Assembly (NCBI GenBank): GCA_029582155.1
Contig: CM055897.1
Span: 11,832,482-11,896,481, forward strand
Length of the DNA: 64,000 bases
From: Panopea generosa
Lineage: Eukaryota > Mollusca > Bivalvia > Adapedonta > Hiatellidae
Reading direction: 5' to 3'
Under the pieces are notes generated by a model. That model ran no database searches and was not told the DNA's origin. It worked only from the letters and a program-made list of their open reading frames with translations. The position numbers were made by a program, and so were the translations under genes. Positions within the stretch are counted from its first letter, which is position 1; each line of letters begins with the position of its first letter. Positions 8,278 through 60,505 of this stretch are shown in pieces.

Positions 8278-9589
8278 ATGAATTATGGTTTAAAAAGAAG
8301 AAATAATACCAGTGATAGGCGCAGAAATGTAGACGTAAGACATACGAGAGTAGGCGACAATGACAGCACGCACATTAATGGAAACCGAAGTACTAGTTAC
8401 CGATCATTTGAACAATATCCGCAAAGAAGTTACCAACATATCGAAAATAATCGCGAATACAACAAACATAACGCTCAAACAAATAACCAAAGCAGAAAAA
8501 AATCTCATACTTATGACAATAGAGGTAACAGACAAGACAGCTGGAATAGAAATGCTCAACAAGACGGATGGAGAAACAGACGAGGCTATAATGGAAGCAT
8601 GAACTATTACAGTGAATCAAGATAGGTTCAATTAGGGTTTTGGAATGTAAATGGATGGTCTAGTGATAGCGGTTCAGATAATTTTATTTTTAGAGAAAAT
8701 TGTGTATGTTTTATGAATATTGATATTATTGGCCTAGCTGAAACTCATCTTTTAAAAGAAAATCATTGAGCTTTAGATAATTATGTGTTTATTGGGCCTA
8801 ATAGGAAACAGATAAATGTTAATGCTAGAAATGGATCAGGAGGCGTATGTTTACTTGTAAAGAGTGACTTATATAAGGAGTTTGAGATTAATGTATTAGC
8901 AAAGTCATATGAAGGCATTTTATGGGTGTCTTTTAAAAAAAAAAAAACTTTTATCTTTTAGCGTATGTGTATTATTTACCTCCTCAAGGATCTTCAAGAT
9001 ATGTCAATTCGAATGATTTTCATGATCAACTCTTAACAAATATATATATGAATATCAAAAATTAGGTCAGTTTGTCATATGTGGTGATTTTAACAGCAGA
9101 GTTGGTGATATGCCAGATTTTATCGAAGGTGTTGATAATGTCTTAGAAAGAGATGTGATTGAGTTTACTAAAAATGCATATGGAGACATGTTGTCTAATT
9201 TTTTAATTGATAGTAATTGTTGTATAATGAAGTGGAGACATTTTAAAAGTAATAATTTCACATGTATTTCATCGAAAGGTAGTTCTGTAGTCGATTACTT
9301 TATAGTTCCTTATGAAGGCATTGAATGTATAGATAATGTAAATGTAACTATTGGATCAGATATGGTGCGGGAACAATGTATAGAGTCGAGGAGTATACCT
9401 GATCACTCACTTTTGACATGTTATTTTTTTCCTAAATGTTTGAAATCTGCAATTGCAGAACAAAATAACAAATATATCATAACAGAAAAGATGTATACAA
9501 AATTTGATGTTAGACATATTCCTGAACATTTTTGTCTTAATTCAGAAATAGCTTTTGATAACAGTATTCAAGAAACGATTTCAAAATAA
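8278..9589 (+). pseudogene. LINE-B N-terminus and APE endonuclease, broken
   Basis: A 115-residue Arg/Asn/Gln/Ser-rich stretch (8278-8625) precedes the endonuclease. The nuclease core shows GFWNVNGWSSDS (about 8637), the catalytic Glu motif IDIIGLAETHLL (about 8720), GDFNSRVGD (about 9083), SSVVDYFIVP (about 9282) and the final IPDHSLL (about 9397). These are the conserved blocks of exonuclease-endonuclease-phosphatase domains that nick target DNA for LINEs. A TGA stop at about 8768 and a frameshift in the A-run at about 8937-8960 break the frame. The start of the element may lie in the stretch shared with the arm, so the true 5' end is uncertain. Confidence 0.87.
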
Positions 9590-25888: not shown

Positions 25889-26275
25889 AAACACCGGAAA
25901 ACACCTAAAACACCGGAAAACACCGAAAAACACAAGAAAACACCAAAAAAACACCCGAAAACACTTTCAATATATCAAATTTAACATTGATGTGCTTGTT
26001 TAATACCAGTTTCTTTATATATTACTCTATTTACGACAATTGTATATGTGTTTTTCGGTTTCCAAAGTGAATATTAACACCGTAAAACACCTAAAACACC
26101 GAAAAACACAGGAAAACGCCCAAAAACACCGAAAAACACTATCATTATATCAAATTTATCATAAATGTATTTGTTTAATACCAGTTACTTTATATATTAC
26201 TCTACTTTATGTGTTTTTCGGTTTCTCAAGTCATACGGTTAGAAACACCAGAAAACACCTAAAACACCCGGTGAC
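25889..26275 (+). repeat. ACACCGGAAA-rich terminal array and 180-bp tandem units
   Basis: Short A/C-rich words (ACACCGGAAAACACC and variants) fill 25889-25965. The block then recurs with the following AT-rich part (TATATCAAATTT at 25971 and again at 26151), a period near 180 bp. A third partial unit ends at about 26270. The complement of the array forms the other end of the element at 27894-27972. Confidence 0.8.
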
Positions 26276-26944: not shown

Positions 26945-27008
26945 TTAAATATGTTATTATTAATATTATTATTATGATTATTATTACTATCATTATTATT
27001 ATTATTAT
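26945..27008. repeat. ATT microsatellite
   Basis: This is an interrupted run of ATT/ATTATT trinucleotides inside the 2.1-kb transposon. Confidence 0.85.
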
Positions 27009-27495
27009 ACCTAATACTTTACATATGTGATTTTTGTCTAGTCATGCATGATTTATCTTTTACTTATCATAACTTTTACAACGTATTTTCATTTTAACAT
27101 CTATGCATCTATACATGTGATATATATTTTTTATAACATTTTCAATGCATTTAAATTTTATATGTTTATATTTCACACCAACAACATGATACTTTTTACA
27201 TCAAGGTCCCTATATGCATTGTTATTTTGAATTTACATATATTTATAGTTCGCATTTTCTTACCTAATACTTTACATATGTGATTTTTGTCTAGTCATGC
27301 GTGATTTATCTTTTACTTATCATAACTTTTACAACGTACTTTCAATTTAACATCTATGCATCTATACATGTGATATATATTTTTATAACATTTTCACTGA
27401 ATTTAAGTTTTATATGTTTATATTTCACACCAACAAACCTGATACTTTTTACATCAAGGTCCCTATATGCAATAATGTTATTCTGAATTTACATA
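27008..27495 (+). repeat. 253-bp tandem duplication
   Basis: The block starting TACCTAATACTTTACATATG at 27008 recurs at 27261 with few differences, including its end ACATCAAGGTCCCTATATGC. Two copies lie head to tail. The high similarity indicates a recent duplication inside the transposon. The two open frames of about 60 codons here are this repeat and not genes. Confidence 0.9.
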
Positions 27496-28492
27496 TATTT
27501 ATATTTCTCATTTAAATACTTGTTACCTTTACAATTAATGTTACTACCGCAATACTGCTTTTTGTTATTTTCTTTTGTACATTTACTATATGACATTATC
27601 TTGTTTGTTTGTATTAAAAATAAAAGATGTTGATATTTACTCAATTATTGTTTTTATTATCACTAATTTGTATAAATTATTGATGTCTGTCCAAAACGAA
27701 TTAAAAAGAATACACACAACAATAATCTATAATATATTTACAGCCATAGGTAATTATCACACGTGCCAGATTTCATGGTCACCGCATACGAATAAATGCT
27801 GACATGAGAAACCGAAAAGCACCTACTAAATTGTCAAAAATAGAGTTTACGTATAGTAACTGGTATGAAACATTTACATTTTTAATATTTTAATAGTGTT
27901 TTCCGGTGTTTTAAAGGTGTTTTCCGGTGTTTTTGGGGTGTTTTCCGGTTTTTAGGTGTTTTCCGGTGTTTCTACGCACCCCAGATTTCGTAAGGATTTC
28001 GGTACTTCATAACATAAATGTCTTTTAACGAAACTACAGTAGATAAAGATGCAGTTTTAACATTGCAGATTGGTAAATTAAATATCAATTCATCGATATG
28101 TCAGGCTAAACTACCTAAAACATGAGACCAAACGTCAAATACACCGTTGAAAGTGCTTGACTGTGTGGTTTTCAGTAATCGCCGGGTTTTTTTGGGGCGG
28201 TGCTTTAGCAGCCGCTCTCAGAGCTAACATGATTTTATTTTCAATACCGCAAATTTACAACCGTGTTTCGTGTTGATGCAAACCTAACAACCACTTATCA
28301 AATAGTTCCACCCCCTGATAAGCTCTAACTCACTATAAACAGTAGATTCACCTATTTCAACGAAAACATTAATATTATAACATACAGCAACGATTTATAC
28401 CTATTAACAATTACGTACCTTATAAATTCCAAGTTTATATTCTGTAGCATTAATCAGCACAAAGGAATTAAAGCGCATGAATACAGACATGC

Positions 28493-32088: not shown

Positions 32089-32145
32089 ATGGACCAAACT
32101 ACAATGTCTACAAAAGGAATGATTCTTCTTCTTCTGTCAGTTTTG
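32089..32145 (+). CDS. Exon 1 of cysteine-rich secreted/receptor protein: signal peptide
   Basis: The ATG at 32089 opens MDQTTMSTKGMILLLLSVL, a short N-region followed by a hydrophobic core, so a signal peptide for secretion or membrane insertion. It ends at a consensus donor (TTG/GTAAGT, phase 0). An in-frame ATG at 32119 would give a shorter signal. I chose the first because both keep the same frame. The next exon joins at 33811 in phase. The 1665-bp intron 1 holds a 60-bp triplicate and no other feature. The gene lies on the + strand and continues through exons 2 to 4. A 5' UTR probably lies in 31960-32088, but its start is not visible. Too short to be found as an open frame, the exon is inferred from splice context. 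Confidence 0.72.
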
Positions 32146-33810: not shown

Positions 33811-34048
33811 GAGTTTAAGTTAGGAGTCTATACCGTTTCGACTCTGAGCCGAGAGATGGACCAATGTGGTTGGGATGTAAAACAAATGGGTTACTGTCCC
33901 CCCCTCCCTTCAAACAATGTCAGTTGGACGTGTCTTGCCAACTTAAAGGCTTGTGATGGTGGCTTGAAGTACCATTGTGCACGAGGTTACGGCAAGGAGG
34001 AAGACAAATTTGTTGAAGCATGCAGAAAGAGCAAAATTTGTATAATGG
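33811..34048 (+). CDS. Exon 2: first cysteine-rich segment
   Basis: The acceptor CTATTTTCAG precedes 33811 and the donor G/GTAGGT follows 34048 (phase 1). The exon reads EFKLGVYTVSTLSRE, then MDQCGWDVKQMGYCPPLPSN and onward to KSKICIMG. It has seven cysteines in 79 residues, with a probable N-glycosylation site in NNVS. Cysteines spaced 4-20 residues apart after a signal peptide point to a disulfide-bonded extracellular domain. I do not recognise the family. A TNF-receptor-like or other small cysteine-rich ectodomain is possible. Upstream in-frame codons before the first Met in this exon are kept because they join exon 1 without a stop. Confidence 0.82.
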
Positions 34049-35145
34049 GTAGGTTATTGTTTATATAGGTTTTGATCATTTATTATTTAAGAGTACTTAT
34101 TGCAATCATCAGATCAGTTGCAACGATGAAGCAATCAACACTTCAACCCCATATACATTTTATTTCTCTTCCATTTTCTTCGGAAATTTTCTCATACTAA
34201 ATTATTTCTCTCAAAATGTTACTACCTGAGATACGACATTTGAGGTTTAATGATTTTTGTTCACAATTGGGGACTATCATCGCTGTAAAAAATCCATTTC
34301 TGATGGGATACGGATGTTTATGTATGAAACAGACATAACACCTGTCAATACTTAAATAAATTATTTTATTTTCAAAGCAAACTGGGGGAATTAAAGAGAA
34401 GAAGACATGGTGTAGCACTGTCACTTGTATTGCTGTTATAACATATATTTTGTCATAATATAAAGATCTGCAGCAGCTGATATCATGGAGGTTTAATTCG
34501 CATGAAGCACCCTTATCATGCAATGGCTATCTGTGAAATTGAATATACAAACTTAAATTTAGTACATCCTTATTAAAAAGCCCAACACCTAACAGAAAGT
34601 TTTTACCAGATTTCTTCATAAACCACATTATCAACCACATTCAAAATTTTAAAGTGCCATATAAACCTCATGTTTTCTTTTTGTGTTCTTGACTTTGAAC
34701 TCTTTTGGGTGGATCTTATGAAAATATGTGTAAACAACGTACCTATTCGGCAAATGCAGTGACCTCGAGAGGGCCTACACAAGTATCACTTATATACCGA
34801 CTGTATCACATGAGATAGCTTGTGCTCTATATCCTTGAGTCCGTTCTTAAAAAAATGTGTTTGCCGTGTTCCTTCTTACTCACTCAAAATTGCAGCTACC
34901 CAAGGTTCTTTATTGACTTTCAAATGTGTTTTTTTATGGTTTCTGTCCATATTTGTTTAAAAATGACTATATATATGAAATCGCAATCTGGCCCAAAAAA
35001 ATTTTTTAACTACCTTCTTACCCACATGAAAAGTTCTGGGTCGGAGCACAGCAAACAAACATTTTTTAAAGGATGACCTGACTGACGTTACATTGTTCAT
35101 TTGCTTCATTTGTATTTAAATACATATCTAACTACATGTAAGCAT
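34049..35145. other. Start of intron 2, unique part
   Basis: About 1.1 kb of AT-rich DNA lies before the repeats. No coding segment is recognised; open frames here lack splice context or family features. Confidence 0.5.
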
Positions 35146-35288
35146 ACACATTATGTTGTTGTTGTATGGCGTTAAGCGTCGCTTTCAACAATTTTTCAGT
35201 CATATCGCGACGGTGTCTACTTGAGACAGTATTCTGAGCACTGTCACACTGGAGTATCATGCCGCAGACACGTGGTATGATACCCCAC
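35146..35288. repeat. Probable interspersed repeat beside the 44-bp array
   Basis: The stretch holds GGCGTTAAGCGTCGCTTTCA, CATATCGCGACGGTG and a GTATCATGCC/GGTATGATAC inverted motif, CpG-rich against its AT-rich surroundings. I recall similar sequence as a common repeat in mollusc DNA, but no second copy exists in this window to prove it. It abuts the start of the minisatellite. Confidence 0.4.
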
Positions 35289-38200
35289 CCGGTCGTTTTA
35301 GGTTGTTTTCTGGTATATAAGAATAGTTTGACTCTTTGTTTCATGTTGTTTTCTGTTTTATATGAATAGTTTGACCCCTTTGTTTCATGTTGTTTTCTGG
35401 TTTACAAGAATAGTTTAACTCCTTTGTTTCATGTTGTTTTCTGTTTTATAAGAATACTTTGACCCCTTTGTTTCATGTTGTTTTTCTGTTTTATAAGAAT
35501 ACTTTGACCCCTTTGTTTCATGTTGTTTTTCTGGTTTATCAAAATAGTTTTACTCCTTTGTTTCATGTTGTTTTCTGGTTAATAAGAATAGTTTGACCCC
35601 TTTATTTCATGTTGTTTTCTGGTTTATAAGAATACTTTAACCCCTTTATTTCATGTTATTTTCTGGTTTATAAGAATAGTTTGACCCCATTGTTTCATGT
35701 TGTTTTTCTGGTTTATAAAAATAGTTTAACTCCTTTGTTTCATGTTGTTTTTCTGGTGTATAAGAATAGTTTAACCCCTTTGTTTCATGTTGTTTTCTGG
35801 TGTATAAGAATAGTTTAACCCCTTTGTTTCATGTTGTTTTCTGGTTTATAAGAATAGTTTGACCCCTTTGTTTCATGTTGTTATCTGTTTTATAAGAATA
35901 CTTTGACCCCTTTTTTTCATGTTGTTTTTTTGTTTATAAGAATACTTTGACCCCTTTGTTTCATGTTGTTTTCTGGTTTATAAGAATAGTTTGACCCCTT
36001 TGTTTCATGTTGTTTTTCTGTTTTATAAGAATACTTTGACCCCTTTGTTTCATGTTGTTTTTCTGGTTTATCAAAATAGTTTTACTCCTTTGTTTCATGT
36101 TGTTTTCTGGTTAATAAGAATAGTTTGACCCCTTTATTTCATGTTGTTTTCTGTTTTATAAGAATAGTTTGACCCCATTGTTTCATGTTGTTTTTCTGGT
36201 TTATAAAAATAGTTTAACTCCTTTGTTTCATGTTGTTTTTCTGGTGTATAAGAATAGTTTAACCCCTTTGTTTCATGTTGTTTTTCTGGTGTATAAGAAT
36301 AGTTTAACCCCTTTGTTTCATGTTGTTTTCTGGTGTATAAGAATAGTTTAACCCCTTTGTTTCATGTTGTTTTCTGGTTTATAAGAATAGTTTGACCCCT
36401 TTGTTTCATGTTGTTATCTGTTTTATAAGAATACTTTGACCCCTTTTTTTCATGTTGTTTTTTTGTTTATAAGAATACTTTGACCCCTTTGTTTCATGTT
36501 GTTTTCTGGTTTATAAGAATAGTTTGACCCCTTTGTTTCATGTTGTTTTCTGGTTTATAAGAATACTTTGACCCCTTTGTTTCAGGTTGTTTGCTGGTTG
36601 ATAAGAATAGTTGAGCTACTTTGTTTCATGTTGTTTTCTGCTTTATAAGTTTAGTTGAACCCCTTGGTTTCAGATTGTTTTTTAGTTTATCAGTTTAGTT
36701 TGACCCCTTGGTTTCAGGTTGTTTTCTGGTTTATATGTTTAGTTGGACCCCATTGTTTCATGTTGTTTTCTGGTCTATAAGAATAGTTGAGCTACTTTGT
36801 TTTAGATTGTTTTCTGATTTATATGTTGAGTTGGATCGCATTGTTTCAGGTTGTTTTCTGGTTTATAAGAATAGTTGAGCTACTTTGTTTCAGGGTTTTT
36901 TTCTGGTTTATAAGTTTAGTTGAGCTTCTTTGTTTCAGGCTGTTTTCTGGTTTATAAGAATAGTTGAGCTACTTTATTTTAGATTCTTTTCTGGTTTATA
37001 TGTTTAGTTGGACCACTTTGTTTCAGGTTGTTTTCTGGTTTATAAGAATAATTGAGCTACTTTGTTTCAGGTTGTTTTCTGGTTTATAAGAATAGTTGAG
37101 CTACTTTGTTTCAGGTTTTGTCTGGTTGGTAAATTTTGTTAAGCTTTTTTGTTTCAGGTTGTTTTCTGGTTGATAAGAATAGTTGAGCTACTTTGTTTCA
37201 GGTTGTTTTCTGGTTTATAAGTTTAGTAGGACCCCTTTGTTTCAGGTTGTTTTTTGGTTTATAAGTTTAGTTGGACCCCATTGTTTCATGTTGTTTTCTG
37301 GTCTATAAGAATAGTTGAGCTACTTTGTTTTAGATTGTTTTCTGGTTTATAAGTTTAGTAGGACCCCTTTGTTTCAGGTTGTTTTTTGGTTTATAAGTTT
37401 AGTTGGACCCCATTGTTTCAGTTTGTTTTCTGGTTTATAAGTTTAGTAGGACCCCTTTGTTTCAGGTTGTTTTTTGGTTTATAAGTTTAGTTGGACCCCA
37501 TTGTTTCATGTTGTTTTCTGGTCTATAAGAATAGTTGAGCTACTTTGTTTTAGATTGTTTTCTGGTTTATAAGTTTAGTAGGACCACTTTGTTTCAGGTT
37601 GTTTTTTGGTTTATAAGTTTAGTTGGACCCCATTGTTTCAGGTTGTTTTCTGGTTGATAAGATTAGTTGAGCTACTTTGTTTCAGGTTGTTTTCTGGTTT
37701 ATAAGTTTAGTTTGACCCCTTTGTTTCAGGTTGTTTTCTGGTTTATATGTTTAGTAGGACCCCTTTGTTTCAGGTTGTTTTTTGGTTTATAAGTTTAGTT
37801 GGACCCCATTGTTTCAGGTTGTTTTCTGGTTGATAAGAATAGTTGAGCTACTTTGTTTCAGGTTGTTTTCTGGTTTATAAGTTTAGTAGGACCCCTTTGT
37901 TTCAGGTTGTTTTCTGGTTTATAAGTTTAGTTGGACCCCATTGTTTCAGGTTGTTTTCTGGTTGATAAGAAAAGTTGAGCTACTTTGTTTCAGGTTGTTT
38001 TCTGGTTTATAAGTTTAGTTTGACCCCTTTGTTTCAGGTTGTTTTCTGGTTTATATGTTTAGTAGGACCCCTTTGTTTCAGGTTGTTTTTTGGTTTATAA
38101 GTTTAGTTGGACCCCATTGTTTCAGGTTGTTTTCTGGTTGATAAGAATAGTTGAGCTACTTTGTTTCATGTTGTTTTCTGCTTTATAAGTTTAGTTGAAC

Positions 38201-41200
38201 CCCTTGGTTTCAGATTGTTTTTTAGTTTATCAGTTTAGTTTGACCCCTTGGTTTCAGGTTGTTTTCTGGTTTATATGTTTAGTTGGACCCCATTGTTTCA
38301 TGTTGTTTTCTGGTCTATAAGAATAGTTGAGCTACTTTGTTTTAGATTGTTTTCTGATTTATATGTTGAGTTGGATCGCATTGTTTCAGGTTGTTTTCTG
38401 GTTTATAAGAATAGTTGAGCTACTTTGTTTCAGGGTTTTTTTCTGGTTTATAAGTTTAGTTGAGCTTCTTTGTTTCAGGCTGTTTTCTGGTTTATAAGAA
38501 TAGTTGAGCTACTTTATTTTAGATTCTTTTCTGGTTTATATGTTTAGTTGGACCACTTTGTTTCAGGTTGTTTTCTGGTTTATAAGAATAATTGAGCTAC
38601 TTTGTTTCAGGTTGTTTTCTGGTTTATAAGAATAGTTGAGCTACTTTGTTTCAGGTTTTGTCTGGTTGATAAGTTTTGTTAAGCTTTTTTGTTTCAGGTT
38701 GTTTTCTGGTTGATAAGAATAGTTGAGCTACTTTGTTTCAGGTTGTTTTCTGGTTTATAAGTTTAGTAGGACCCCTTTGTTTTAGGTTGTTTTTGGGTTT
38801 ATAAGTTTAGTTGGACCCCATTGTTTCATTTTGTTTTCTGTTCTATAAGAATAGTTGAGCTACTTTGTTTTAGATTGTTTTCTGGTTTATAAGTTTAGTA
38901 GGACCCCTTTGTTTCAGGTTGTTTTCTGGTTTATATGTTTAGTAGGACCCCTTTGTTTCAGGTTGTTTTCTGGTTGATAAGAATAGTTGAGCTACTTTGT
39001 TTCAGGTTGTTTTCTGGTTTATAAGTTTAGTTTGACCCCTTTGTTTCAGGTTGTTTTTTGGTTTATATGTTTAGTTGGACCCCTTTGTTTCAGGTTGTTT
39101 TTTGGTTTATAAGTTTAGTTGAACCCCATTGTTTCAGGTTGTTTTCTGGTTGATAAGAATAGTTGAGCTACTTTGTTTTAGGTTGTTTTCTGGTTTATAA
39201 GTTTAGTAGGACCCCTTTGTTTCAGGTTGTTTTCTGGTTTATAAGTTTAGTTGGACCGCATTGTTTCAGGTTGTTTTCTGGTTTATAAGAATAGTTGAGC
39301 TACTTTGTTTCAGGTTGTTTTCTGGTTTATCAGTTTAGTTTGACCCCTTTGTTTCAGGTTGTTTTCTGGTTTATATGTTTAGTAGGACCCCTTTGTTTCA
39401 GGCTGTTTTTGGTTTATAAGTTTAGTTGGACCCCATTGTTTCAGGTTGTTCTCTGGTTGATAAGAATAGTTGAGCTACTTTGTTTCATGTTGTTTTCTGC
39501 TTTATAAGTTTAGTTGAACCCCTTGGTTTCAGATTGTTTTTTAGTTGATCAGTTTAGTTTGACCCCTTGGTTTCAGGTTGTTTTCTGGTTTATATGTTTA
39601 GTTGGACCCCATTGTTTCATGTTGTTTTCTGGTCTATAAGAATAGTTGAGCTACTTTGTTTTAGATTGTTTTCTGATTTATATGTTGAGTTGGATCGCAT
39701 TGTTTCAGGTTGTTTTCTGGTTTATAAGAATAGTTGAGCTACTTTGTTTCAGGGTTTTTTTCTGGTTTATAAGTTTAGTTGAGCTTCTTTGTTTCAGGCT
39801 GTTTTCTGGTTTATAAGAATAGTTGAGCTACTTTATTTTAGATTCTTTTCTGGTTTATATGTTTAGTTGGACCACTTTGTTTCAGGTTGTTTTCTGGTTT
39901 ATAAGAATAATTGAGCTACTTTGTTTCAGGTTGTTTTCTGGTTTATAAGAATAGTTGAGCTACTTTGTTTCAGGTTTTGTCTGGTTGATAAATTTTGTTA
40001 AGCTTTTTTGTTTCAGGTTGTTTTCTGGTTGATAAGAATAGTTGAGCTACTTTGTTTCAGGTTGTTTTCTGGTTTATAAGTTTAGTAGGACCCCTTTGTT
40101 TTAGGTTGTTTTTGGGTTTATAAGTTTAGTTGGACCCCATTGTTTCATGTTGTTTTCTGGTCTATAAGAATAGTTGAGCTACTTTGTTTTAGATTGTTTT
40201 CTGGTTTATAAGTTTAGTTTGACCCCTTTGTTTCAGGTTGTTTTTTGGTTTATAAGTTTAGTTGGACCCCATTGTTTCAGGTTGTTTTCTGGTTGATAAG
40301 AATAGTTGAGCTACTTTGTTTCAGGTTGTTTTCTGGTTTATAAGTTTAGTTTGACCCCTTTGTTTCAGGTTGTTTTCTGGTTTATATGTTTAGTAGGACC
40401 CCTTTGTTTCAGGTTGTTTTTTGGTTTATAAGTTTAGTTGGACCCCATTGTTTCAGGTTGTTTTCTGGTTGATAAGAATAGTTGAGCTACTTTGTTTCAG
40501 GTTGTTTTCTGGTTTATAAGTTTAGTAGGACCCCTTTGTTTCAGGTTGTTTTTTGGTTTATAAGTTTAGTTGGACCCCATTGTTTCAGGTTGTTTTCTGG
40601 TTGATAAGAATAGTTGAGCTACTTTGTTTCAGGTTGTTTTCTGGTTTATAAGTTTAGTTTGACCCCTTTGTTTCAGGTTGTTTTCTGGTTTATATGTTCA
40701 GTAGGACCCCTTTGTTTCAGGTTGTTTTTTGGTTTATAAGTTTAGTTGGACCCCATTGTTTCAGGTTGTTTTCTGGTTGATAAGAATAGTTGAGCTACTT
40801 TGTTTCAGGTTGTTTTCTGGTTTATAAGTTTAGTTTGACCCCTTTGTTTCAGGTTGTTTTTTGGTTTATAAGTTTAGTAGGACCCCTTTGTTTAAGGTTG
40901 TTTTCTGGTTTATATGTTTTGTTGGACCCCATTGTTTCATGTTGTTTTCTGGTGTATAATAATAGTTTAACTCCTTTGTTTCATGTTGTTTTTCTGGTGT
41001 ATAAGAATAGTTTAACTCCTTTGTTTCATGTTGTTTTTCTGGTGTATAAGAATAGTTTAACTCCTTTGTTTCATGTTGTTTTCTGGTGTATAAGAATAGT
41101 TTAACCCCTTTGTTTCATGTTGTTTTTCTGGTGTATAAGAATAGTTTAACTCCTTTGTTTCATGTTGTTTTCTGGTGTATAAGAATAGTTTAACTCCTTT

Positions 41201-44200
41201 GTTTCATGTTGTTTTCTGGTGTATAAGAATAGTTTAACCCCTTTGTTTCATGTTGTTTTCTGGTTTATAAGAATACTTTGACCCCTTTGTTTCATGTTGT
41301 TTTCTGTTTTATAAGAATACTTTGACCCCTTTTTTTCATGTTGTTTTCTTGTTTATAAGAATACTTTGACCCCTTTGTTTCATGTTGTTTTCTGGTTTAT
41401 AAGAATAGTTTGACCCCTTTGTTTCATGTTGTTTTCTGGTTTATAAGAATACTTTGACCCCTTTGTTTCAGGTTGTTTTCTGGTTGATAAGAATAGTTGA
41501 GCTACTTTGTTTCATGTTGTTTTCTGCTTTATAAGTTTAGTTGAACCCCTTGGTTTCAGATTGTTTTTTAGTTTATCAGTTTAGTTTGACCCCTTGGTTT
41601 CAGGTTGTTTTCTGGTTTATATGTTTAGTTGGACCCCATTGTTTCATGTTGTTTTCTGGTCTATAAGAATAGTTGAGCTACTTTGTTTTAGATTGTTTTC
41701 TGATTTATATGCTGAGTTGGATTGCATTGTTTCAGGTTGTTTTCTGGTTTATAAGAATAGTTGAGCTACTTTGTTTCAGGGTTTTTTTCTGGTTTATAAG
41801 TTTAGTTGAGCTTCTTTGTTTCAGGCTGTTTTCTGGTTTATAAGAATAGTTGAGCTACTTTTTTTTTTAGATTCTTTTCTGGTTTATATGTTTAGTTGGA
41901 CCACTTTGTTTCAGGTTGTTTTCTGGTTTATAAGAATAATTGAGCTACTTTGTTTCAAGTTGTTTTCTGGTTTATAAGAATAGTTGAGCTACTTTGTTTC
42001 AGGTTTTGTCTGGTTGGTAAATTTTGTTAAGCTTTTTTGTTTCAGGTTGTTTTCTGGTTGATAAGAATAGTTGAGCTACTTTGTTTCAGGTTGTTTTCTG
42101 GTTTATAAGTTTAGTAGGACCCCTTTGTTTCAGGTTGTTTTTTGGTTTATAAGTTTAGTTGGACCCCATTGTTTCATGTTGTTTTCTGGTCTATAAGAAT
42201 AGTTGAGCTACTTTGTTTTAGATTGTTTTCTGGTTTATAAGTTTAGTAGGACCTCTTTGTTTCAGGTTGTTTTTTGGTTTATAAGTTTAGTTGGACCCCA
42301 TTGTTTCAGGTTGTTTTCTGGTTGATAAGATTAGTTGAGCTACTTTGTTTCAGGTTGTTTTCTGGTTTATAAGTTTAGTTTGACCCCTTTGTTTCAGGTT
42401 GTTTTCTGGTTTATATGTTTAGTAGGACCCCTTTGTTTTAGGTTGTTTTTTGGTTTATAAGTTTAGTTGGACCCCATTGTTTCAGGTTGTTTTCTGGTTG
42501 ATAAGAATAGTTGAGCTACTTTGTTTCAGGTTGTTTTCTGGTTTATAAGTTTAGTAGGACCCCTTTGTTTCAGGTTGTTTTCTGGTTTATAAGTTTAGTT
42601 GGACCCCATTGTTTCAGGTTGTTTTCTGGTTGATAAGAATAGTTGAGCTACTTTGTTTCAGGTTGTTTTCTGGTTTATAAGTTTAGTAGGACCCCTTTGT
42701 TTCAGGTTGTTTTCTGGTTTATAAGTTTAGTTGGACCCCATTGTTTCAGGTTGTTTTCTGGTTGATAAGAAAAGTTGAGCTACTTTATTTCAGGTTGTTT
42801 TCTGGTTTATAAGTTTAGTTTGACCCCTTTGTTTCAGGTTGTTTTCTGGTTTATATGTTTAGTAGGACCCCTTTGTTTCAGGTTGTTTTTTGGTTTATAA
42901 GTTTAGTTGGACCCCATTGTTTCAGGTTGTTTTCTGGTTGATAAGAATAGTTGAGCTACTTTGTTTCATGTTGTTTTCTGCTTTATAAGTTTAGTTGAAC
43001 CCCTTGGTTTCAGATTGTTTTTTAGTTGATCAGTTTAGTTTGACCCCTTGGTTTCAGGTTGTTTTCTGGTTTATATGTTTAGTTGGACCCCATTGTTTCA
43101 TGTTGTTTTCTGGTCTATAAGAATAGTTGAGCTACTTTGTTTTAGATTGTTTTCTGATTTATATGTTGAGTTGGATCGCATTGTTTCAGGTTGTTTTCTG
43201 GTTTATAAGAATAGTTGAGCTACTTTGTTTCAGGGTTTTTTTCTGGTTTATAAGTTTAGTTGAGCTTCTTTGTTTCAGGCTGTTTTCTGGTTTATAAGAA
43301 TAGTTGAGCTACTTTATTTTAGATTCTTTTCTGGTTTATATGTTTAGTTGGACCACTTTGTTTCAGGTTGTTTTCTGGTTTATAAGAATAATTGAGCTAC
43401 TTTGTTTCAGGTTGTTTTCTGGTTTATAAGAATAGTTGAGCTACTTTGTTTCAGGTTTTGTCTGGTTGATACATTTTGTTAAGCTTTTTTGTTTCAGGTT
43501 GTTTTCTGGTTGATAAGAATAGTTGAGCTACTTTGTTTCAGGTTGTTTTCTGGTTTATAAGTTTAGTAGGACCCCTTTGTTTTAGGTTGTTTTTGGGTTT
43601 ATAAGTTTAGTTGGACCCCATTGTTTCATTTTGTTTTCTGGTCTATAAGAATAGTTGAGCTACTTTGTTTTAGATTGTTTTCTGGTTTATAAGTTTAGTA
43701 GGACCCCTTTGTTTCAGGTTGTTTTCTGGTTTATATGTTTAGTAGGACCCCTTTGTTTCAGGTTGTTTTCTGGTTGATAAGAATAGTTGAGCTTCTTTGT
43801 TTCAGGTTGTTTTCTGGTTTATAAGTTTAGTTTGACCCCTTTGTTTCAGGTTGTTTTCTGGTTTATATGTTCAGTAGGACCCCTTTGTTTCAAGTTGTTT
43901 TTTGGTTTATAAGTTTAGTTGGACCCCATTGTTTCAGGTTGTTTTCTGGTTGATAAGAATAGTTGAGCTACTTTGTTTCAGGTTGTTTTCTGGTTTATAA
44001 GTTTAGTTTGACCCCTTGGTTTCAGGTTGTTTTTTGGTTTATAAGTTTAGTAGGACCCCTTTGTTTAAGGTTGTTTTCTGGTTTATATGTTTTGTTGGAC
44101 CCCATTGTTTCATGTTGTTTTCTGGTGTATAATAATAGTTTAACTCCTTTGTTTCATGTTGTTTTTCTGGTGTATAAGAATAGATTAACTCCTTTGTTTC

Positions 44201-47200
44201 ATGTTGTTTTCTGGTGTATAAGAATAGTTTAACCCCTTTGTTTCATGTTGTTTTCTGGTTTATAAGAATACTTTGACCCCTTTGTTTCATGTTGTTTTCT
44301 GTTTTATAAGAATACTTTGACCCCTTTTTTTCATGTTGTTTTCTTGTTTATAAGAATACTTTGACCCCTTTGTTTCATGTTGTTTTCTGGTTTATAAGAA
44401 TAGTTTGACCCCTTTGTTTCATGTTGTTTTCTGGTTTATAAGAATACTTTGACCCCTTTGTTTCAGGTTGTTTTCTGGTTGATAAGAATAGTTGAGCTAC
44501 TTTGTTTCATGTTGTTTTCTGCTTTATAAGTTTAGTTGAACCCCTTGGTTTCAGATTGTTTTTTAGTTTATCAGTTTAGTTTGACCCCTTGGTTTCAGGT
44601 TGTTTTCTGGTTTATATGTTTAGTTGGACCCCATTGTTTCATGTTGTTTTCTGGTCTATAAGAATAGTTGAGCTACTTTGTTTTAGATTGTTTTCTGATT
44701 TATATGCTGAGTTGGATCGCATTGTTTCAGGTTGTTTTCTGGTTTATAAGAATAGTTGAGCTACTTTGTTTCAGGGTTTTTTTCTGGTTTATAAGTTTAG
44801 TTGAGCTTCTTTGTTTCAGGCTGTTTTCTGGTTTATAAGAATAGTTGAGCTACTTTTTTTTTTAGATTCTTTTCTGGTTTATATGTTTAGTTGGACCACT
44901 TTGTTTCAGGTTGTTTTCTGGTTTATAAGAATAATTGAGCTACTTTGTTTCAAGTTGTTTTCTGGTTTATAAGAATAGTTGAGCTACTTTGTTTCAGGTT
45001 TTGTCTGGTTGGTAAATTTTGTTAAGCTTTTTTGTTTCAGGTTGTTTTCTGGTTGATAAGAATAGTTGAGCTACTTTGTTTCAGGTTGTTTTCTGGTTTA
45101 TAAGTTTAGTAGGACCCCTTTGTTTCAGGTTGTTTTTTGGTTTATAAGTTTAGTTGGACCCCATTGTTTCATGTTGTTTTCTGGTCTATAAGAATAGTTG
45201 AGCTACTTTGTTTTAGATTGTTTTCTGGTTTATAAGTTTAGTAGGACCTCTTTGTTTCAGGTTGTTTTTTGGTTTATAAGTTTAGTTGGACCCCATTGTT
45301 TCAGGTTGTTTTCTGGTTGATAAGATTAGTTGAGCTACTTTGTTTCAGGTTGTTTTCTGGTTTATAAGTTTAGTTTGACCCCTTTGTTTCAGGTTGTTTT
45401 CTGGTTTATATGTTTAGTAGGACCCCTTTGTTTTAGGTTGTTTTTTGGTTTATAAGTTTAGTTGGACCCCATTGTTTCAGGTTGTTTTCTGGTTGATAAG
45501 AATAGTTGAGCTACTTTGTTTCAGGTTGTTTTCTGGTTTATAAGTTTAGTAGGACCCCTTTGTTTCAGGTTGTTTTCTGGTTTATAAGTTTAGTTGGACC
45601 CCATTGTTTCAGGTTGTTTTCTGGTTGATAAGAAAAGTTGAGCTACTTTGTTTAAGGTTGTTTTCTGGTTTATAAGTTTAGTTTGACCCCTTTGTTTCAG
45701 GTTGTTTTCTGGTTTATATGTTTAGTAGGACCCCTTTGTTTCAGGTTGTTTTTTGGTATATAAGTTTAGTTGGACCCCATTGTTTCAGGTTGTTTTCTGG
45801 TTGATAAGAATAGTTGAGCTACTTTGTTTCAGGTTGTTTTCTGGTTTATAAGTTTAGTAGGACCCCTTTGTTTCAGGTTGTTTTTTGGTTTATAAGTTTA
45901 GTTGGACCCCATTGTTTCAGGTTGTTTTCTGGTTGATAAGAATAGTTGAGCTACTTTGTTTCAGGTTGTTTTCTGGTTTATAAGTTTAGTTTGACCCCTT
46001 TGTTTCAGGTTGTTTTCTGGTTTATATGTTCAGTAGGACCCCTTTGTTTCAGGTTGTTTTTTGGTTGATAAGTTTAGTTGGACCCCATTGTTTCAGGTTG
46101 TTTTCTGGTTGATAAGAATAGTTGAGCTACTTTGTTTCAGGTTGTTTTCTGGTTTATAAGTTTAGTTTGACCCCTTGGTTTCAGGTTGTTTTTTGGTTTA
46201 TAAGTTTAGTAGGACCCCTTTGTTTCATGTTGTTTTCTGGTTTATATGTTTTGTTTGACCCCATTGTTTCATGTTGTTTTCTGGTGTATAAGAATAGTTT
46301 AACTCCTTTGTTTCATGTTGTTTTTCTGGTGTATAAGAATAGTTTAACCCCTTTGTTTCATGTTGTTTTCTGGTGTATAAGAATAGTTTAACCCCTTTGT
46401 TTCATGTTGTTTTCTGGTTTATAAGAATACTTTGACCCCTTTGTTTCATGTTGTTTTCTGTTTTATAAGAATACTTTGACCCCTTTTTTTCATGTTGTTT
46501 TCTTGTTGATAAGAATACTTTGACCCCTTTGTTTCATGTTGTTTTCTGGTTTATAAGAATAGTTTGACCCCTTTGTTTCATGTTGTTTTCTGGTTTATAA
46601 GAATACTTTGACCCCTTTGTTTCAGGTTGTTTTCTGGTTGATAAGAATAGTTGAGCTACTTTGTTTCATGTTGTTTTCTGCTTTATAAGTTTAGTTGAAC
46701 CCCTTGGTTTCAGATTGTTTTTTAGTTTATCAGTTTAGTTTGACCCCTTGGTTTCAGGTTGTTTTCTGGTTTATATGTTTAGTTGGACCCCATTGTTTCA
46801 TGTTGTTTTCTGGTCTATAAGAATAGTTGAGCTACTTTGTTTTAGATTGTTTTCTGATTTATATGCTGAGTTGGATCGCATTGTTTCAGGTTGTTTTCTG
46901 GTTTATAAGAATAGTTGAGCTACTTTGTTTCAGGTTTTTTTTCTGGTTTATAAGTTTAGTTGAGCTTCTTTGTTTCAGGCTGTTTTCTGGTTTATAAGAA
47001 TAGTTGAGCTACTTTTTTTTTTAGATTCTTTTCTGGTTTATATGTTTAGTTGGACCACTTTGTTTCAGGTTGTTTTCTGGTTTATAAGAATAATTGAGCT
47101 ACTTTGTTTCAGGTTGTTTTCTGGTTTATAAGAATAGTTGAGCTACTTTGTTTCAGGTTTTGTCTGGTTGATAAATTTTGTTAAGCTTTTTTGTTTCAGG

Positions 47201-49285
47201 TTGTTTTCTGGTTGATAAGAATAGTTGAGCTACTTTGTTTCAGGTTGTTTTCTGGTTTATAAGTTTAGTAGGACCCCTTTGTTTCAGGTTGTTTTTTGGT
47301 TTATAAGTTTAGTTGGACCCCATTGTTTCAGGTTGTTTTCTGGTTTATATGTTTAGTTGGACCCCATTGTTTCATGTTGTTTTCTGGTCTATAAGAATAG
47401 TTGAGCTACTTTGTTTTAGATTGTTTTCTGGTTTATAAGTTTAGTTGGACCCCATTGTTTCAGGTTGTTTTTTGGTTTATAAGTTTAGTTGGACCCCTTG
47501 GTTTCAGGTTGTTTTTTGGTTTATAAGTTTAGTTGGACCCCTTTGTTTCAGGTTGTTTTTTGGTTTATAAGTTTAGTTGGACCCCTTGGTTTCAGGTTGA
47601 TTTTTGGTTTTTAAGTTTAGTTGGACCCCATTGTTTCAGGTTGTTTTTTGGTTTATAAGTTTAGTTGGACCCCATTGTTTTAGATTGTTTTCTGGTTTAT
47701 ATGTTAAGTTGGACCGCATTGTTTTAGGTTGCTTTCTGGTTTATATGTTTAGTTGGACCCCATTGTTTCATGTTGTTTTCTGGTCTATAAGAATAGTTGA
47801 GCTACTTTGTTTTAGATTGTTTTCTGGTTTATAAGTTTAGTTGGATCCCTTTGTTTCAGGTTGTTTTTTGGTTTATAAGTTTAGTTGGACCCCTTGGTTT
47901 CAGGTTGTTTTTTGGTTTATAAGTTTAGTTGGACCCCTTTGTTTCAGGTTGTTTTTTGGTTTATAAGTTTAGTTGGACCCCTTGGTTTCAGGTTGTTTTT
48001 TGGTTTATAAGTTTAGTTGGACCCCTTTGTTTCAGGTTGTTTTTTGGTTTATAAGTTTAGTTGGACCCCTTGGTTTCAGGTTGTTTTTTGGTTTATAAGT
48101 TTAGTTGGACCCCATTGTTTCAGGTTGTTTTTTGGTTTATAAGTTTAGTTGGACCCCATTGTTTTAGATTGTTTTCTGGTTTATATGTTAAGTTGGACCG
48201 CATTGTTTTAGGTTGCTTTCTGGTTTATATGTTTAGTTGGACCCCATTGTTTCATGTTGTTTTCTGGTCTATAAGAATAGTTGAGCTACTTTGTTTTAGA
48301 TTGTTTTCTGGTTGATAAGTTTAGTTGGACCCCTTTGTTTCAGGTTGTTTTTTGGTTGATAAGTTTAGTTGGACCCCTTAGTTTCAGGTTGTTTTTTGGT
48401 TTATAAGTTTAGTTGGACCCCATTGTTTCAGGTTGTTTTTTGGTTTTTAAGTTTAGTTGGACCCCATTGTTTTAGATTGTTTTCTGGTTTATATGTTAAG
48501 TTGGACCGCATTGTTTTAGGTTGCTTTCTGGTTTATATGTTTAGTTGGACCCCATTGTTTCATGTTGTTTTCTGGTCTATAAGAATAGTTGAGCTACTTT
48601 GTTTTAGATTGTTTTCTGGTTTATAAGTTTAGTTGGACCCCTTTGTTTCAGGTTGTTTTCTGGTTTATAAGTTTAGTTGGACCCCTTGGTTTCAGGTTGT
48701 TTTTTGGTTTATAAGTTTAGTTGGACCCCATTGTTTCAGGTTGTTTTTTTGTTTATAAGTTTAGTTGGACCCCATTGTTTTAGGTTGTTTTCTAGTTTAT
48801 AAGAATAGTTGAGCTACTTTGTTTCAGGTTTTGTCTGGTTTATAAGTTTTGTTAAGCTTCTTTGTTTCAGGTTGTTTTCTGATTGATAAGAAAAGTTGAA
48901 CTACTTTGTTTCAGGTTGTTTTCTGGTTTATAAGTTTTGTTAAGCTTCTTTGTTTCAGGTTGTTTTCTGATTGATAAGAAAAGTTGAACTACTTTGTTTC
49001 AGGTTGTTTTCTGGTTTATAAGTTTTGTTGAGCTTCTTTGTTTCAGGTTGATTTCTGGTTTATAAGTATAGTTGAGCTACTTTGTTTCAGGTTGTTTTCT
49101 CGTTTATAAGTTTAATCGGACCCCTTTGTTTCAGGTTGTTTTCTGGTTAGTAAGAAATGTTGGAATCCTTTGTTTCAGGTTGTTTTCTGTTAGTAAATTT
49201 GGTTGAGCCACTTTGTTTCAAGTTGTTTTTTTTTTTCATGTACATGTAAATGTTAGTTGAACTTTCATGTTCAGGTTGTTTTCTG
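35289..49285 (+). repeat. Giant 44-bp minisatellite in intron 2
   Basis: About 14 kb of units of 44 bp (some 43-46) runs through most of intron 2, about 315 copies. A typical unit is TTGTTTCAGGTTGTTTTCTG followed by GTTTATAAGTTTAGTTGGAC and CCCA. Two variant classes alternate. Class A has TTTCATG (35289-36570, about 40925-41465, 44105-44455, 46225-46615). Class B has TTTCAGG (the rest). Longer blocks are re-duplicated: TTGGATCGCA or TTGGATTGCA recurs at 36831, 38371, 39690, 41717, 43171, 44712 and 46871, mostly at multiples of 44. The + strand is strongly G/T-biased. Because 44 is not a multiple of 3, long frames here (for example 40790-41104) are by-products and not genes. Confidence 0.97.
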
Positions 49286-49298
49286 GTTTTAATTTCAG
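49262..49298 (+). promoter_or_regulatory. 3' splice site of exon 3 inside the last repeat unit
   Basis: The acceptor region reads TTCAGGTTGTTTTCTGGTTT then TAATTTCAG, ending at 49298. The first 20 bases are identical to the array consensus. The functional TTTCAG takes the place of the TATAAGTTTAG that follows in a normal unit. So the acceptor and its pyrimidine-rich tract are a modified terminal unit of the minisatellite. Confidence 0.8.
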
Positions 49299-49649
49299 GA
49301 AGAGAACCACGTATAAGCTTTGAACCAAACAACAATATAGAAATATTCTGTGAACTGTGCTTTGATGTTGACCATTACAATTCTGTGCCAACCAAGTCAT
49401 CAACAGAGTTTTCTGAATGTCCATATAAGAAAATTATCTGTTCTGAGGACCAGATTGAATGTAAAAAGACTAATAATCCAGAGGCCAGCAGCAGATTTTG
49501 TCGATGTGATGCTAGAAATGGTTACATAGAAGAGGGCTTCAGTCCTCCAGAAACTGGAACCTATGATCCATGTAGAAACAAACAGTTTAGATGTGTCAAG
49601 GCCACTCCATGTAACGCTGTCAATGAAATCCCACAAGAAAGAATGCTAA
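49299..49649 (+). CDS. Exon 3: main cysteine-rich segment
   Basis: The exon joins exon 2 in phase 1 (G+GA gives Gly) and reads GREPRISFEPNNN onward to NEIPQERML, 117 codons. The donor is CTAA/GTAATT (phase 1). Ten cysteines occur, in FCELCF, SECPY, IICSE, IECKK, RFCRCDARNGY, YDPCRN, FRCVK and TPCNA. The C-x-C-x(5)-GY motif and later spacing recall TNF-receptor or EGF-like cysteine-rich modules, but no module fits cleanly. It is not a chance frame, because it has the lowest A/T content and best cysteine pattern of the region and is bounded by phase-matched splice sites. The open frame upstream of 49299 is repeat-derived. Confidence 0.88.
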
Positions 49650-55124: not shown

Positions 55125-55630
55125 TTGTAGATATGCATTAATGTATCAGGTGCACTGTAGACTGTAGATATGCATTAATGTATCTGGAGCACTGTAGATA
55201 TGCATTAAAGTATCTGGAGCATTGAAGATATGCATTAATGTATCTGGAGCACTTTAGATATGCATTAATGTATCTGGAGCGCTGTAGATATGCATTAATG
55301 TGATCAAGATGAATGAAAACATTGATAAGATGAGAGAACAATTAATGAAAACATTGATTGGATGAGAGAAAGATAAATGAAAACAGTAATTAGATGAGAG
55401 AACAATTAATGAAAACATTGATTGGATGAGAGAAAGATTAATGAAAACACTGATGGATGAGAGAAAAATAAATGAAAGTGCCGATTGGATGAGAGAAAGA
55501 TTAATTAAAACACTGATTGGATGAGAGAAAAGATTAATGGAATTATTGATCAGACAAGAGAAAGATTAATGAAAACACTCTTTGGATGAGAGAAAATAAA
55601 AACATGTCTGACATCTGCTAGCTTCTCTCT
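55125..55630 (+). repeat. Composite minisatellite block, copy 2, beside exon 4
   Basis: About six 30-bp units, the same GTGATCAAGATGAATGAAAA junction, then about eight 31-bp units and the same AAAACATGTCTGACATCTGC end. It stops about 40 bp before the exon 4 acceptor, so intron 3, like intron 2, has its array at the 3' end. Confidence 0.9.
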
Positions 55631-55669: not shown

Positions 55670-55733
55670 ATTACACCTGCAAACCTGAATGTCAAGATGG
55701 CTATGGACGAAATGAGACATCTGATGAATGCAG
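55670..55733 (+). CDS. Exon 4: short cysteine-rich segment
   Basis: The acceptor TTCTCTTTCCAG ends at 55669 and the donor AG/GTGTGT follows 55733 (phase 2). Joined to exon 3 (A+AT gives Asn) it reads NYTCKPECQDGYGRNETSDE, then C and R. It adds three cysteines (20 in total) and probable N-glycosylation sites NYT and NET. The C-x(3)-C-x(2)-GY spacing resembles the start of a TNF-receptor or EGF-like repeat. No later exon or membrane segment is visible to 64000, so the protein is incomplete here. Confidence 0.75.
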
Positions 55734-56027: not shown

Positions 56028-57012
56028 CATTCATTCCCCACAGGGCCTCATTGTAACATTTATGTCTCACACCACTTCAAGGTCTCACTGAAGAATAACT
56101 TCCCTTACATGACGGTAGCAAGATTATTACGCCAAAGAAATTAGAATTGTGTAAAGCAGTTGGGCATTTTTTTGTTAAAAATGCATAAAATGTCACATTT
56201 CTTTGTGCATATGGGAACATTTGAACATTTTCATGATTTCTGCAAAGTTTTGGTGACATTGGGGACTGTTTGGCGATGCTATGATAGTTTAAAGATGCAT
56301 AGTGATACACTGCAACAAATGGGCAGAATTGTCAAAAATGAAGGGGTGCCATCAAACCATCGAAATTGTGAAAAAGCAGCCTGGTCAACCCCCTGTATTT
56401 TCTACATATTTGGACCAACAGAGGACTATCTATGGGAATCAGACACTTTTAGAACCATTGGTAATATATCCAGTGTTCCAGAAGTGCATGTCTCTATATG
56501 TAGAACAGTACAAAATTAATTGGTGTGTGAAACGTACTACATTCCCCACAGGACTTCGTTGTACCATTTATGTCTTACACCACTATTACATTCCCCACAG
56601 GGCTTCATTGCAACATTTCTATCTCTCACCACTATTACATTCATTCCCCACAGGTCTTCATTGCAACATTTCTGTCTCACATCACTTTTACATTCCCCAC
56701 AGGGCTTCATTGTAACATTTCTGTCTCATATCACTGTTACATTCCCCACAGGGCTTCATTGTAACATTTCTGTCTCACACCACTATTACATTCCCCACAG
56801 GGCTTCATTGTAACATTTATGTCTCACATCACTGTTATTTCATTTCCCACAGGGCTTCATTGTAACATTTCTGTCTCATATCACTATTACATTCCCCACA
56901 GGGCTTCATTGCAATATTTCTGTCTCACACCACTATTACATTCATTCCCCACAGGGCTTCATTGTAACATTTATGTCTCACACCACTACTACATGGCTTC
57001 ATTGTAACATTA
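56028..57012 (+). repeat. 49-bp minisatellite after exon 4
   Basis: One unit stands alone at about 56028-56080. The main array, of about ten units, is at 56535-57012. A unit reads TTCCCCACAGGGCTTCATTG, TAACATTTCTGTCTCACACC, ACTATTACA. Every unit contains CCCCACAGG, an acceptor-like CAG/G after pyrimidines. Between the two lies 56081-56534, a non-repeat stretch with an unrecognised 119-codon frame (56160-56519) that may be an insertion. Long frames through the array are by-products. Confidence 0.92.
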
Positions 57013-59344: not shown

Positions 59345-60505
59345 AAAGCACAATGTGGGTAGTGGGGTTGGTATGGGGTATGGTGGATACAGAGTGTACA
59401 GCAGATAGTTGAGATGGTGAAGTGGATGTAGCAGGTACAGCAGCTGCTGGTAGTGTAGTTGGTATGATGGATGAGGCGGGTACATCAGGATGCTGTAGTT
59501 GGTATGATGGATGCAGATGGTACAGCTGGTACTGCAGTTGGTATTGTGGGTGTAGAAGGTACAGCTGGTTGTATAGGGGGTATAATTGGTGTAGAAGGTA
59601 CAACTGGTAGCATAGTTTGTATGGTTGGTGTTGAGGGTACAACCCAGGTAGCATAGTTGGTATGGTGGGTGTTGAGGGTAAGCTGGTAGTGTAGTTGGTA
59701 TGGTAGGTGAAGAGGGTATGACAGGTAACAGTTGGTATGGTGGATGTAGAAGGTACAGCTGGTAGCATAGTTGGTATGATGGTAGTAGAGGGTATGGCTC
59801 GTAGTGTAGTTGGTATAGTGGGTGTGGATAGTACAACTGGTAGTATAGTTGGTATGGTGGGTGTTGAGGGTACAGCTAGTAGTGTAGTTGGTATGGTGGA
59901 TGAAGAGGGTATGACAGATAACATGGTTGGTATGGTGAGTGTGGATGGTACAACTGGTAGCATAGTTGGCATGGTGGGTGTTGACCGTAGAGCTGGTAAT
60001 ATAGTTGGTATGTAGGTGTTGAGGGTACAGCTGGTAGTGTAGTTGGTATGATAGTTGGAGAGAGTACAGATGGTAGTGTAGATGGTTTCATGGGTGTAGA
60101 CAGTACAGCTGGTAGTGTAGGCGATATGGTAGGTGTAGAGGGTACAGCTGGTAGCGTAGTTGGTATAGTGGTTGTAGAGGTTACAGTAGGTAGTATAGTT
60201 GGTATGTTTGGTGTAGAGGGTACAGCTGGTAGCGTTGTTGGTGTTGTGAGTGTAGAAAGTACAACAGGTAGTGCAGTTGCTTTTGTGAATGAAGGGGGTA
60301 CAGCTGGCAGTGTAGTTGGTATGGTGAGTAGCATAGATGGTATAGCGGGTGTTGCTGGTACAACTGGAAGCATAGTTGTTATGGTTGGTGTTGAGGGTAC
60401 AGCTGGTTGTTATGATGGGTAAAGAAAGTACAGCTGGTAGTGTAGATGGTATCATAGTTGTATATACAGTACAGCTGGTAGTATAGTTGATATGGTGGGT
60501 GTAGA
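59345..60505 (+). repeat. 39-bp minisatellite, block 1
   Basis: About 30 units of GGTAGTGTAGTTGGTATGGT plus GGGTGTAGAGGGTACAGCT. The 39-bp length (13 codons) keeps frames open on both strands. The minus-strand 420-codon frame (59319-60581) reads PTTLPAVPSTPTI repeats but switches repeat phase several times, and a plus frame reads VGMVGVEGTAGS. That all frames give repeats argues for non-coding DNA. Confidence 0.93.

Follow-up and report, generated by a model that had tools for sequence, protein, structure and literature searches.

A 14-kb minisatellite extending to within nine nucleotides of predicted exon 3 in a Panopea generosa gene

We analysed a 64,000-nucleotide (nt) stretch of the genome of the bivalve Panopea generosa (contig CM055897.1 of assembly GCA_029582155.1; hereafter the window), in which a predicted plus-strand gene of four exons carries a minisatellite with a 44-bp unit in its second intron. 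The array runs almost into exon 3: an exact match to the unit over 20 of 20 bases, TTCAGGTTGTTTTCTGGTTT, ends 9 nt before the exon, and on sequence grounds the predicted exon 3 acceptor has a polypyrimidine tract that is repeat sequence. We put at about an even chance the account in which the minisatellite began from a seed at the 3′ end of intron 2, or a few bases away, and was tolerated for want of donors and through AG scanning. Coordinates of the features are collected in Table 1.

The boundary between array and exon 3

The initial annotation had placed the end of the array about 10 bases from exon 3 and had held that the array turned the intron into one of 15 kb. Both points hold, as the exact unit match extends to 49289, and intron 2 would measure about 1.25 kb without the array. 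After the exact match, the terminal 9 nt of the intron, up to 49298, read TAATTTCAG. When the last 46 nt of intron 2 were compared with one AG-to-AG turn of the unit, the alignment scored 42, a value that none of 3,000 background 46-mers attained (maximum, 23); internal units gave a mean of 68.5 and a lowest score of 27 on the same alignment. The ends of introns 1 and 3 were unlike the unit, with 1,591 and 979 of 3,000 background sequences, respectively, matching as well. The resemblance of the intron 2 end to the unit rests on the 20-mer. Exon sequence was absent from the unit, to which 208 of 600 background 60-mers matched as well as the first 60 nt of exon 3.

Tandem Repeats Finder called the array with a period of 44 and 316.3 copies at 35295–49229. 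Wraparound alignment to the cyclic consensus GTTTCAGGTTGTTTTCTGGTTTATAAGTTTAGTTTGACCCCTTT divided 35287–49298 into 319 pieces, ending at the predicted last base of intron 2. The first of these pieces (35287–35294) is 8 nt long, matches at five of eight positions and is more likely the end of a flanking element; hence we place the left edge at 35295 and count 318 units. Head-to-tail units of about 10–100 bp in an array of kilobases are what is called a minisatellite, and this array is one.

Only 105 distinct sequences were present among the 319 pieces, and 267 of the 317 near-full pieces (40–56 nt) had an identical twin. We also found 29 pairs of blocks, 12–35 units long and 97.72–99.61% identical; runs had to comprise 12 or more units, with no more than 2 edits in each and a minimum lag of 3 units, settings that impose a floor of about 95% identity. 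Because near-identical multi-unit blocks occur together with many identical twins, the sequence points to recent segmental amplification of the array. Turnover of minisatellites by unequal exchange leaves a homogenised core, decayed edges and repeated blocks, all of which are seen here. Six units lie at least 3 edits from their nearest other unit, namely unit 2 at the left edge (5 edits), unit 250 (3 edits) and the four units 315–318 next to the exon; the exon-side edge is more decayed than the left edge.

Acceptor-like sites in the array and choice of AG

Splice scores were taken from generic textbook matrices, and the yTnAy branch-point motif is likewise a generic one; neither was trained on this organism. 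The strong acceptor-like site of the unit, which the initial annotation had overlooked, is TTTCAG/GTTG at offset 5 (the slash marks the splice point). In the consensus unit it scores 7.31, above the predicted acceptors of exon 3 (3.07) and exon 2 (6.34) and below that of exon 4 (7.73); when made tandem, 0.5% of 6,000 random 44-mers from the window and 2.3% of 5,000 shuffled units reached this value. At offset 5, 222 of 231 AGs equal or exceed the score of the exon 3 acceptor, and 124 reach that of exon 2. The register that the initial annotation had aligned with the exon 3 AG (offset 30) proved weak, with a mean of −3.89 and a single site out of 253 reaching 3.07. Over the whole array, counting the sites at exon 3 and 49274, 230 of 917 AGs attain 3.07, compared with 3.27% of 2,752 AGs outside it. 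Strong false acceptors are in general expected to be rare immediately ahead of the real one in an intron. In introns with an AG exclusion zone, as described in the excerpt of PMC1431707 used here, AGs are missing ahead of the acceptor, in contrast to the 917 found over about 14 kb of array.

Donors are scarce by the same measure. A single one of 1,651 array GTs reaches the score of the exon 2 donor (2.18), as against 112 of 3,266 GTs outside the array. The 157 copies of CAG/GTTGTT in the array have a donor score of −2.09, compared with 2.18 to 5.17 for exons 1, 2 and 4. Recursive splice sites, or zero-length exons, consist of a strong acceptor followed directly by a strong donor, and a ladder of recursive splicing is rejected here, the donor half being too weak. 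When exon 2 was joined in silico to decoys in 35287–49274, considering CAGG sites only, a stop followed within 98 codons at all 181 sites. We found no support for an RNA structure that loops the array out: in a 291-nt stretch of the array (39000–39290), the RNA was less structured than its shuffles, 199 of 200 of which folded at least as well (z = +2.03).

Decoys are not evenly distributed. The acceptor AG is missing from 28 of the 29 leftmost units, in which CATG replaces CAGG, and from 58 of the 289 other units, such that the part of the array that is transcribed first is nearly free of offset-5 decoys. Both outermost units keep the AG (TTTTAGG on the left, TTCAGG on the right), and its loss from the leftmost units is for this reason probably derived. 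Segmental duplication by itself could be enough to explain the decoy-poor region.

The last unit contains an AG of the strong register at 49274, use of which would, in an open and continuous frame, add eight residues (CFLVLISG) to the start of exon 3. Three yTnAy motifs occur in the last 100 nt of intron 2, with their A at 49238, 49267 and 49292, the last being too close to the AG at 49298. The 3′ splice site is described as the first AG downstream of the branch point, with AGs closer than 12–15 nt open to bypass (excerpt of PMC1431707). The A at 49267 lies only 7 nt from the 49274 AG, and by this rule 49298 would be chosen over 49274.

Origin of the array

In the account that we favour, a seed at or a few bases from the 3′ end of intron 2 would have grown into the intron by segmental duplication and unequal exchange. 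The exon-proximal units, which show the edge decay, would be the oldest and would have remained outside homogenisation, and the last unit would still provide exon 3 with its polypyrimidine tract. Tolerance of more than 200 acceptor-like units may be owed to the scarcity of strong 5′ splice sites, which would leave a unit hardly definable as an exon; transcripts that join exon 2 to a decoy would be discarded on account of their early stops; and, with the 49267 A too near the 49274 AG, scanning would go on to the AG at 49298.

Placement, the quality of the unit and decay at the edge speak for this origin. If a seed were placed uniformly in the ~1.25 kb of intron that remain, about 0.8% of positions (10 of 1,248) would bring its end to no more than 9 nt from exon 3. 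Read from the sequence, this placement, together with an acceptor-grade unit and a decayed exon-side edge, favours seeding at or near the intron end. The initial annotation had left two options, that the array grew out of the intron end or that the acceptor was captured from the array; the same three observations lean towards growth and are not decisive.

Several points weigh against this account. The three arguments are all post hoc, and it would take an orthologue to make any of them decisive; the splice matrices and the branch-point motif are generic, as stated above. At the boundary, the 20 nt that precede the 20-mer (49250–49269) match the unit at chance level on their own (707 of 3,000 background sequences as good), and the terminal TAATTTCAG, fitted locally and freely, is equalled by 179 of 3,000. 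Anchored, its fit is equalled by 11.6% of 5,000 random 9-mers, 5.4% of 5,000 pyrimidine-rich 9-mers and 5.5% of the 614 NNNNNNCAG (9-mers ending in CAG) in the window. The earlier proposal that the real acceptor aligns with a unit thus stands for the polypyrimidine tract, which comes from the last unit; the AG, whose fit is shared by 5–12% of comparable 9-mers, may or may not be repeat-derived, judged by its sequence. The scarcity of donors is less complete at lower scores, with 8 of 1,651 array GTs versus 327 of 3,266 outside at 0.18, and 29 versus 496 at −0.82. Because 11 of the 12 best array donors listed reach −0.14, the score of the exon 3 donor itself, the array is not donor-free at that level, if donors that weak work. 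Nor need the scarcity have been selected, since the best donor of the unit (−2.09) at least equals that of 50% of random 44-mers; chance, sieved by survival, may account for it. Of eight other array consensuses, one, from a 49-bp array that lies downstream of exon 4, likewise contains an acceptor stronger than that of exon 3 (4.18, a score reached by 3.9% of random 49-mers), and the presence of an acceptor in a unit may for this reason be due to chance or to local composition. From the motif A at 49238, scanning would reach another AG first, one that ends at 49256, 18 nt on, which counts against the favoured account if this A serves as the branch point. Finally, the modelled 3′ end of exon 3, and with it the position of its donor, is uncertain: GTs in a phase that matches exon 4 are found at 49650 (−0.14), 49611 (0.27) and 49461 (0.28), and the best-scoring GT nearby, at 49727 (2.97), is incompatible in phase.

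An ordinary minisatellite might instead have arisen within intron 2 and expanded up to the exon, its last unit merging with an older acceptor whose final 9 nt are not repeat; the stop at the acceptor would then be a limit imposed by selection on the exon. We regard this as possible, if rather unlikely. The commonplace fit of the last 9 nt and the lack of exon sequence in the unit are in keeping with it, as is a locus rich in minisatellites, with at least ten other arrays in the window. One of these, a 32-bp array at 55306–55596, ends 73 nt before exon 4 (at 55670), and two of the three predicted introns therefore have an array near their 3′ end. Against such an expansion stand the ~0.8% expectation for placement this close to the exon and the strong acceptor motif of the unit, found in 0.5% of random 44-mers.

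The AG at 49274 raises a further alternative, in which splicing first used it, a duplication across the intron–exon boundary gave rise to the repeat, and the acceptor was later displaced in frame, 24 nt downstream, to the first AG beyond the array. This scheme overlaps with seeding at the intron end as regards the location of the seed. Its TTCAG/GTTG is in frame with exon 3 and open over eight additional codons, it outscores the acceptor at 49298 (4.04 versus 3.07), and the strong acceptor of the unit lies in about the same register; a similar step is part of the model proposed for amphioxus mirages (excerpt of PMC3087553). Agreement in frame alone, however, is a one-in-three event, and by eye the eight residues, a cysteine and a hydrophobic run, are unlike the rest of the exon; we consider this history unlikely. 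Slightly more doubtful still is a version in which a minisatellite born of a splice site multiplied that site more than 200-fold, with the acceptor moving 24 nt in frame to the first AG past the array. Were it true, a weak exon (acceptor 3.07, donor −0.14) would stand beside a long ladder of stronger decoys, and the length of the array, expected to vary among individuals, would tune exon 3 inclusion. Skipping of exon 3 (351 nt, phase 1 to 1) and use of the 49274 site would both preserve the frame.

We attach very little probability to the idea that a mobile element of the Helentron/HINE or pearl type inserted next to exon 3 and that the array is its inner block of repeats. The left edge of the array does adjoin a short element with a predicted hairpin, and oyster Helentrons carry tandem repeats together with a microsatellite, subterminal repeats and an end palindrome (excerpt of PMC7492417). 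However, only 9 nt separate exon 3 from the last exact unit match, leaving no room for a second terminus, and oyster units are mostly 140–180 bp long with at most 29 monomers, according to the same excerpt. An exact search for the 26-base core of the unit in viral contigs gave no matches, which is weak evidence in the same direction. Membership of the Helentron/HINE group calls for termini on both sides, and the hairpin element is found on the left only.

That left element shares no flanking word longer than 6 nt and had no second copy in the window by blastn. ARAGORN reported no genes in it at default settings and one unnamed call (tRNA-???) at a relaxed threshold. A target-site duplication and a tRNA-like head are hallmarks of a short interspersed element (SINE). 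The element may be akin to bivalve SINEs.

The predicted gene, neighbouring repeats and related structures

The four predicted exons are consistent in phase throughout, and their joined reading is a cysteine-rich protein; exon 3 in particular is taken to start at 49299 on the basis of reading frames. Its acceptor and donor both score below those of the neighbouring exons. This weakness would fit a gene model in which exon 3 is not in fact joined to exon 2, and the identical twins of 267 of 317 units make an array like this hard to assemble, so that its length might be a product of assembly. We hold an error of either kind to be distinctly unlikely, given the phase-consistent, cysteine-rich reading over four exons and the decayed, unique units that anchor the array to its flanks at both edges.

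Table 1 Predicted exons, array and boundary features in the window
Feature	Position	Strand	Description
Predicted exon 1	32104–32145	+	MSTKGMILLLLSVL, signal-peptide-like by eye; donor TTG/GTAAGT (5.06)
Predicted exon 2	33811–34048	+	Acceptor TTTTCAG/GAG (6.34); donor TGG/GTAGGT (2.18); phase 1 at end
Predicted intron 2	34049–49298	+	15,250 bp; 1,246 bp (34049–35294) outside array
Short left flanking element	35165–35294 (left bound approximate)	−	Strong predicted hairpin 35250–35287; end adjoins first array unit
44-bp minisatellite	35295–49298	+	318 units including partial last one; ~14 kb of intron 2
Leftmost 29 units	35295–36578	+	CATG for CAGG in 28 of 29, acceptor AG lost; outermost keeps AG
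Longest duplicated block	41112–45649	+	35 units; 41112–42654 again at 44107–45649, 99.61% identity
Decayed exon-side units 315–318	49084–49266	+	Edit distance to nearest other unit 3, 7, 7 and 16
Candidate branch point TTCAT	49264–49268	+	A at 49267, 7 nt before 49274 AG and 31 nt before 49298 AG
Last exact unit match	49270–49289	+	In polypyrimidine-tract place of predicted exon 3 acceptor
Unit-register AG in last unit	49273–49274	+	TTCAG/GTTG (4.04); 24 nt upstream of predicted acceptor
Predicted exon 3 acceptor AG	49297–49298	+	TTTTAATTTCAG/GAAG (3.07)
Predicted exon 3	49299–49649	+	351 nt; phase 1 at both ends; weak donor TAA/GTAATT (−0.14)
Predicted exon 4	55670–55733	+	YTCKPECQDGYGRNETSDEC; acceptor TTTCCAG/ATT (7.73); donor CAG/GTGTGT

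Searches with the predicted protein gave few leads. Exons 2 and 3 matched no Pfam family at E values up to 1, and exons 1–3 gave five matches at E up to 1 among sequences of solved structures in the Protein Data Bank (best E, 0.048), all of them taken as chance. No relative was found among viral contigs, and no paralogous exon within the window, where the best off-target tblastn hits had E values of 1.9 (exon 3) and 2.0 (exon 2). The window contained no Rfam match at gathering scores and no tRNAs.

Other repeats were recorded along the window. The 49-bp array downstream of exon 4 (56538–56994, 9.1 copies) bears the acceptor-like CATTCCCCACAG/GG (consensus score, 4.18), with nine sites in 457 bp, and has no sense-strand donor at the level of exon 2. 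Two 39-bp, or 13-codon, arrays (59446–60326 and 60975–61833) contain 9 and 11 donor-like sites at that level, respectively, and both strands are open over long stretches, the minus strand including a frame of 433 aa. Near-identical peptides are encoded on opposite strands at 7820–8119 (minus) and 13126–13422 (plus) and at 6572–6928 (plus) and 14259–14579 (minus); these point to long inverted repeats (6572–8119 and 13126–14579) flanking open frames at 8275–11727 that look retroelement-like by eye. Short arrays of the AAACACCGGA type and its reverse complement GTGTTTTCCG, at 25889–26139 and 27896–27971, flank a 253-bp tandem pair (27008–27513) and are possibly the ends of one element.

Comparisons with published systems draw on excerpts of the papers cited. 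The closest described structures that we found there are the mirages of amphioxus, tandem repeats that lie over intron–exon boundaries and carry splice signals in Adh3, the globin genes BflGb6 and BflGb9, and PGBD5, reportedly leaving regular splicing undisturbed (PMC3087553, PMC3902484). Their units measure 150–160 bp in BflGb6 (3 or 6 units), 157 bp in BflGb9, 60 and 108 bp in PGBD5 and 10–72 bp in Adh3 (PMC3087553, PMC3902484). As in mirages, minisatellite-like repeats with splice sites stand at an exon boundary here, AG/GT signals occur in many units and, as in BflGb6, the boundary units seem to have been left out of homogenisation. Mirages, however, span the boundary and duplicate exon sequence, whereas the 44-bp unit contains none, amounts to about 318 copies over 14 kb and leaves the predicted acceptor outside its own acceptor register. 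The array is thus not a true amphioxus-type mirage, having signals in its units and not exon sequence (the 208 of 600 background 60-mers noted above); from this comparison it looks like an intron-side relative of mirages on a far larger scale.

The model of intron gain by duplicated AG/GT proto-splice sites (Rogers 1989, cited in PMC3087553) also invites comparison, as units carrying CAG/GT could each in principle be a 44-nt intron; in contrast to that model, the donor half CAG/GTTGTT is poor (−2.09), and the intron here need not be new. Intron 1 of an earthworm metallothionein gene similarly holds a long array with a structured order of monomers within a small gene, but in the excerpt of PMC12783039 that array is not described as entering a splice acceptor. 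Oyster Helentron repeats are set apart from the 44-bp array by the length of their units, the size of their arrays and the presence of a terminus on either side (PMC7492417). Among the titles and abstract openings listed from the open-licence PMC literature, none described a minisatellite this large that ends in a splice acceptor; as a sign of novelty this is weak.

More than 200 acceptors that equal or outscore the predicted site seem to be present in intron 2, along with very few donors. If exon 2 is joined cleanly to exon 3, the locus would be a natural test of exon definition and AG scanning, in which a great many decoys are ignored, and would illustrate how the turnover of a repeat can make an intron about twelve times longer or displace the boundary of an exon. 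Should the length of the array vary, the balance of isoforms could vary too.

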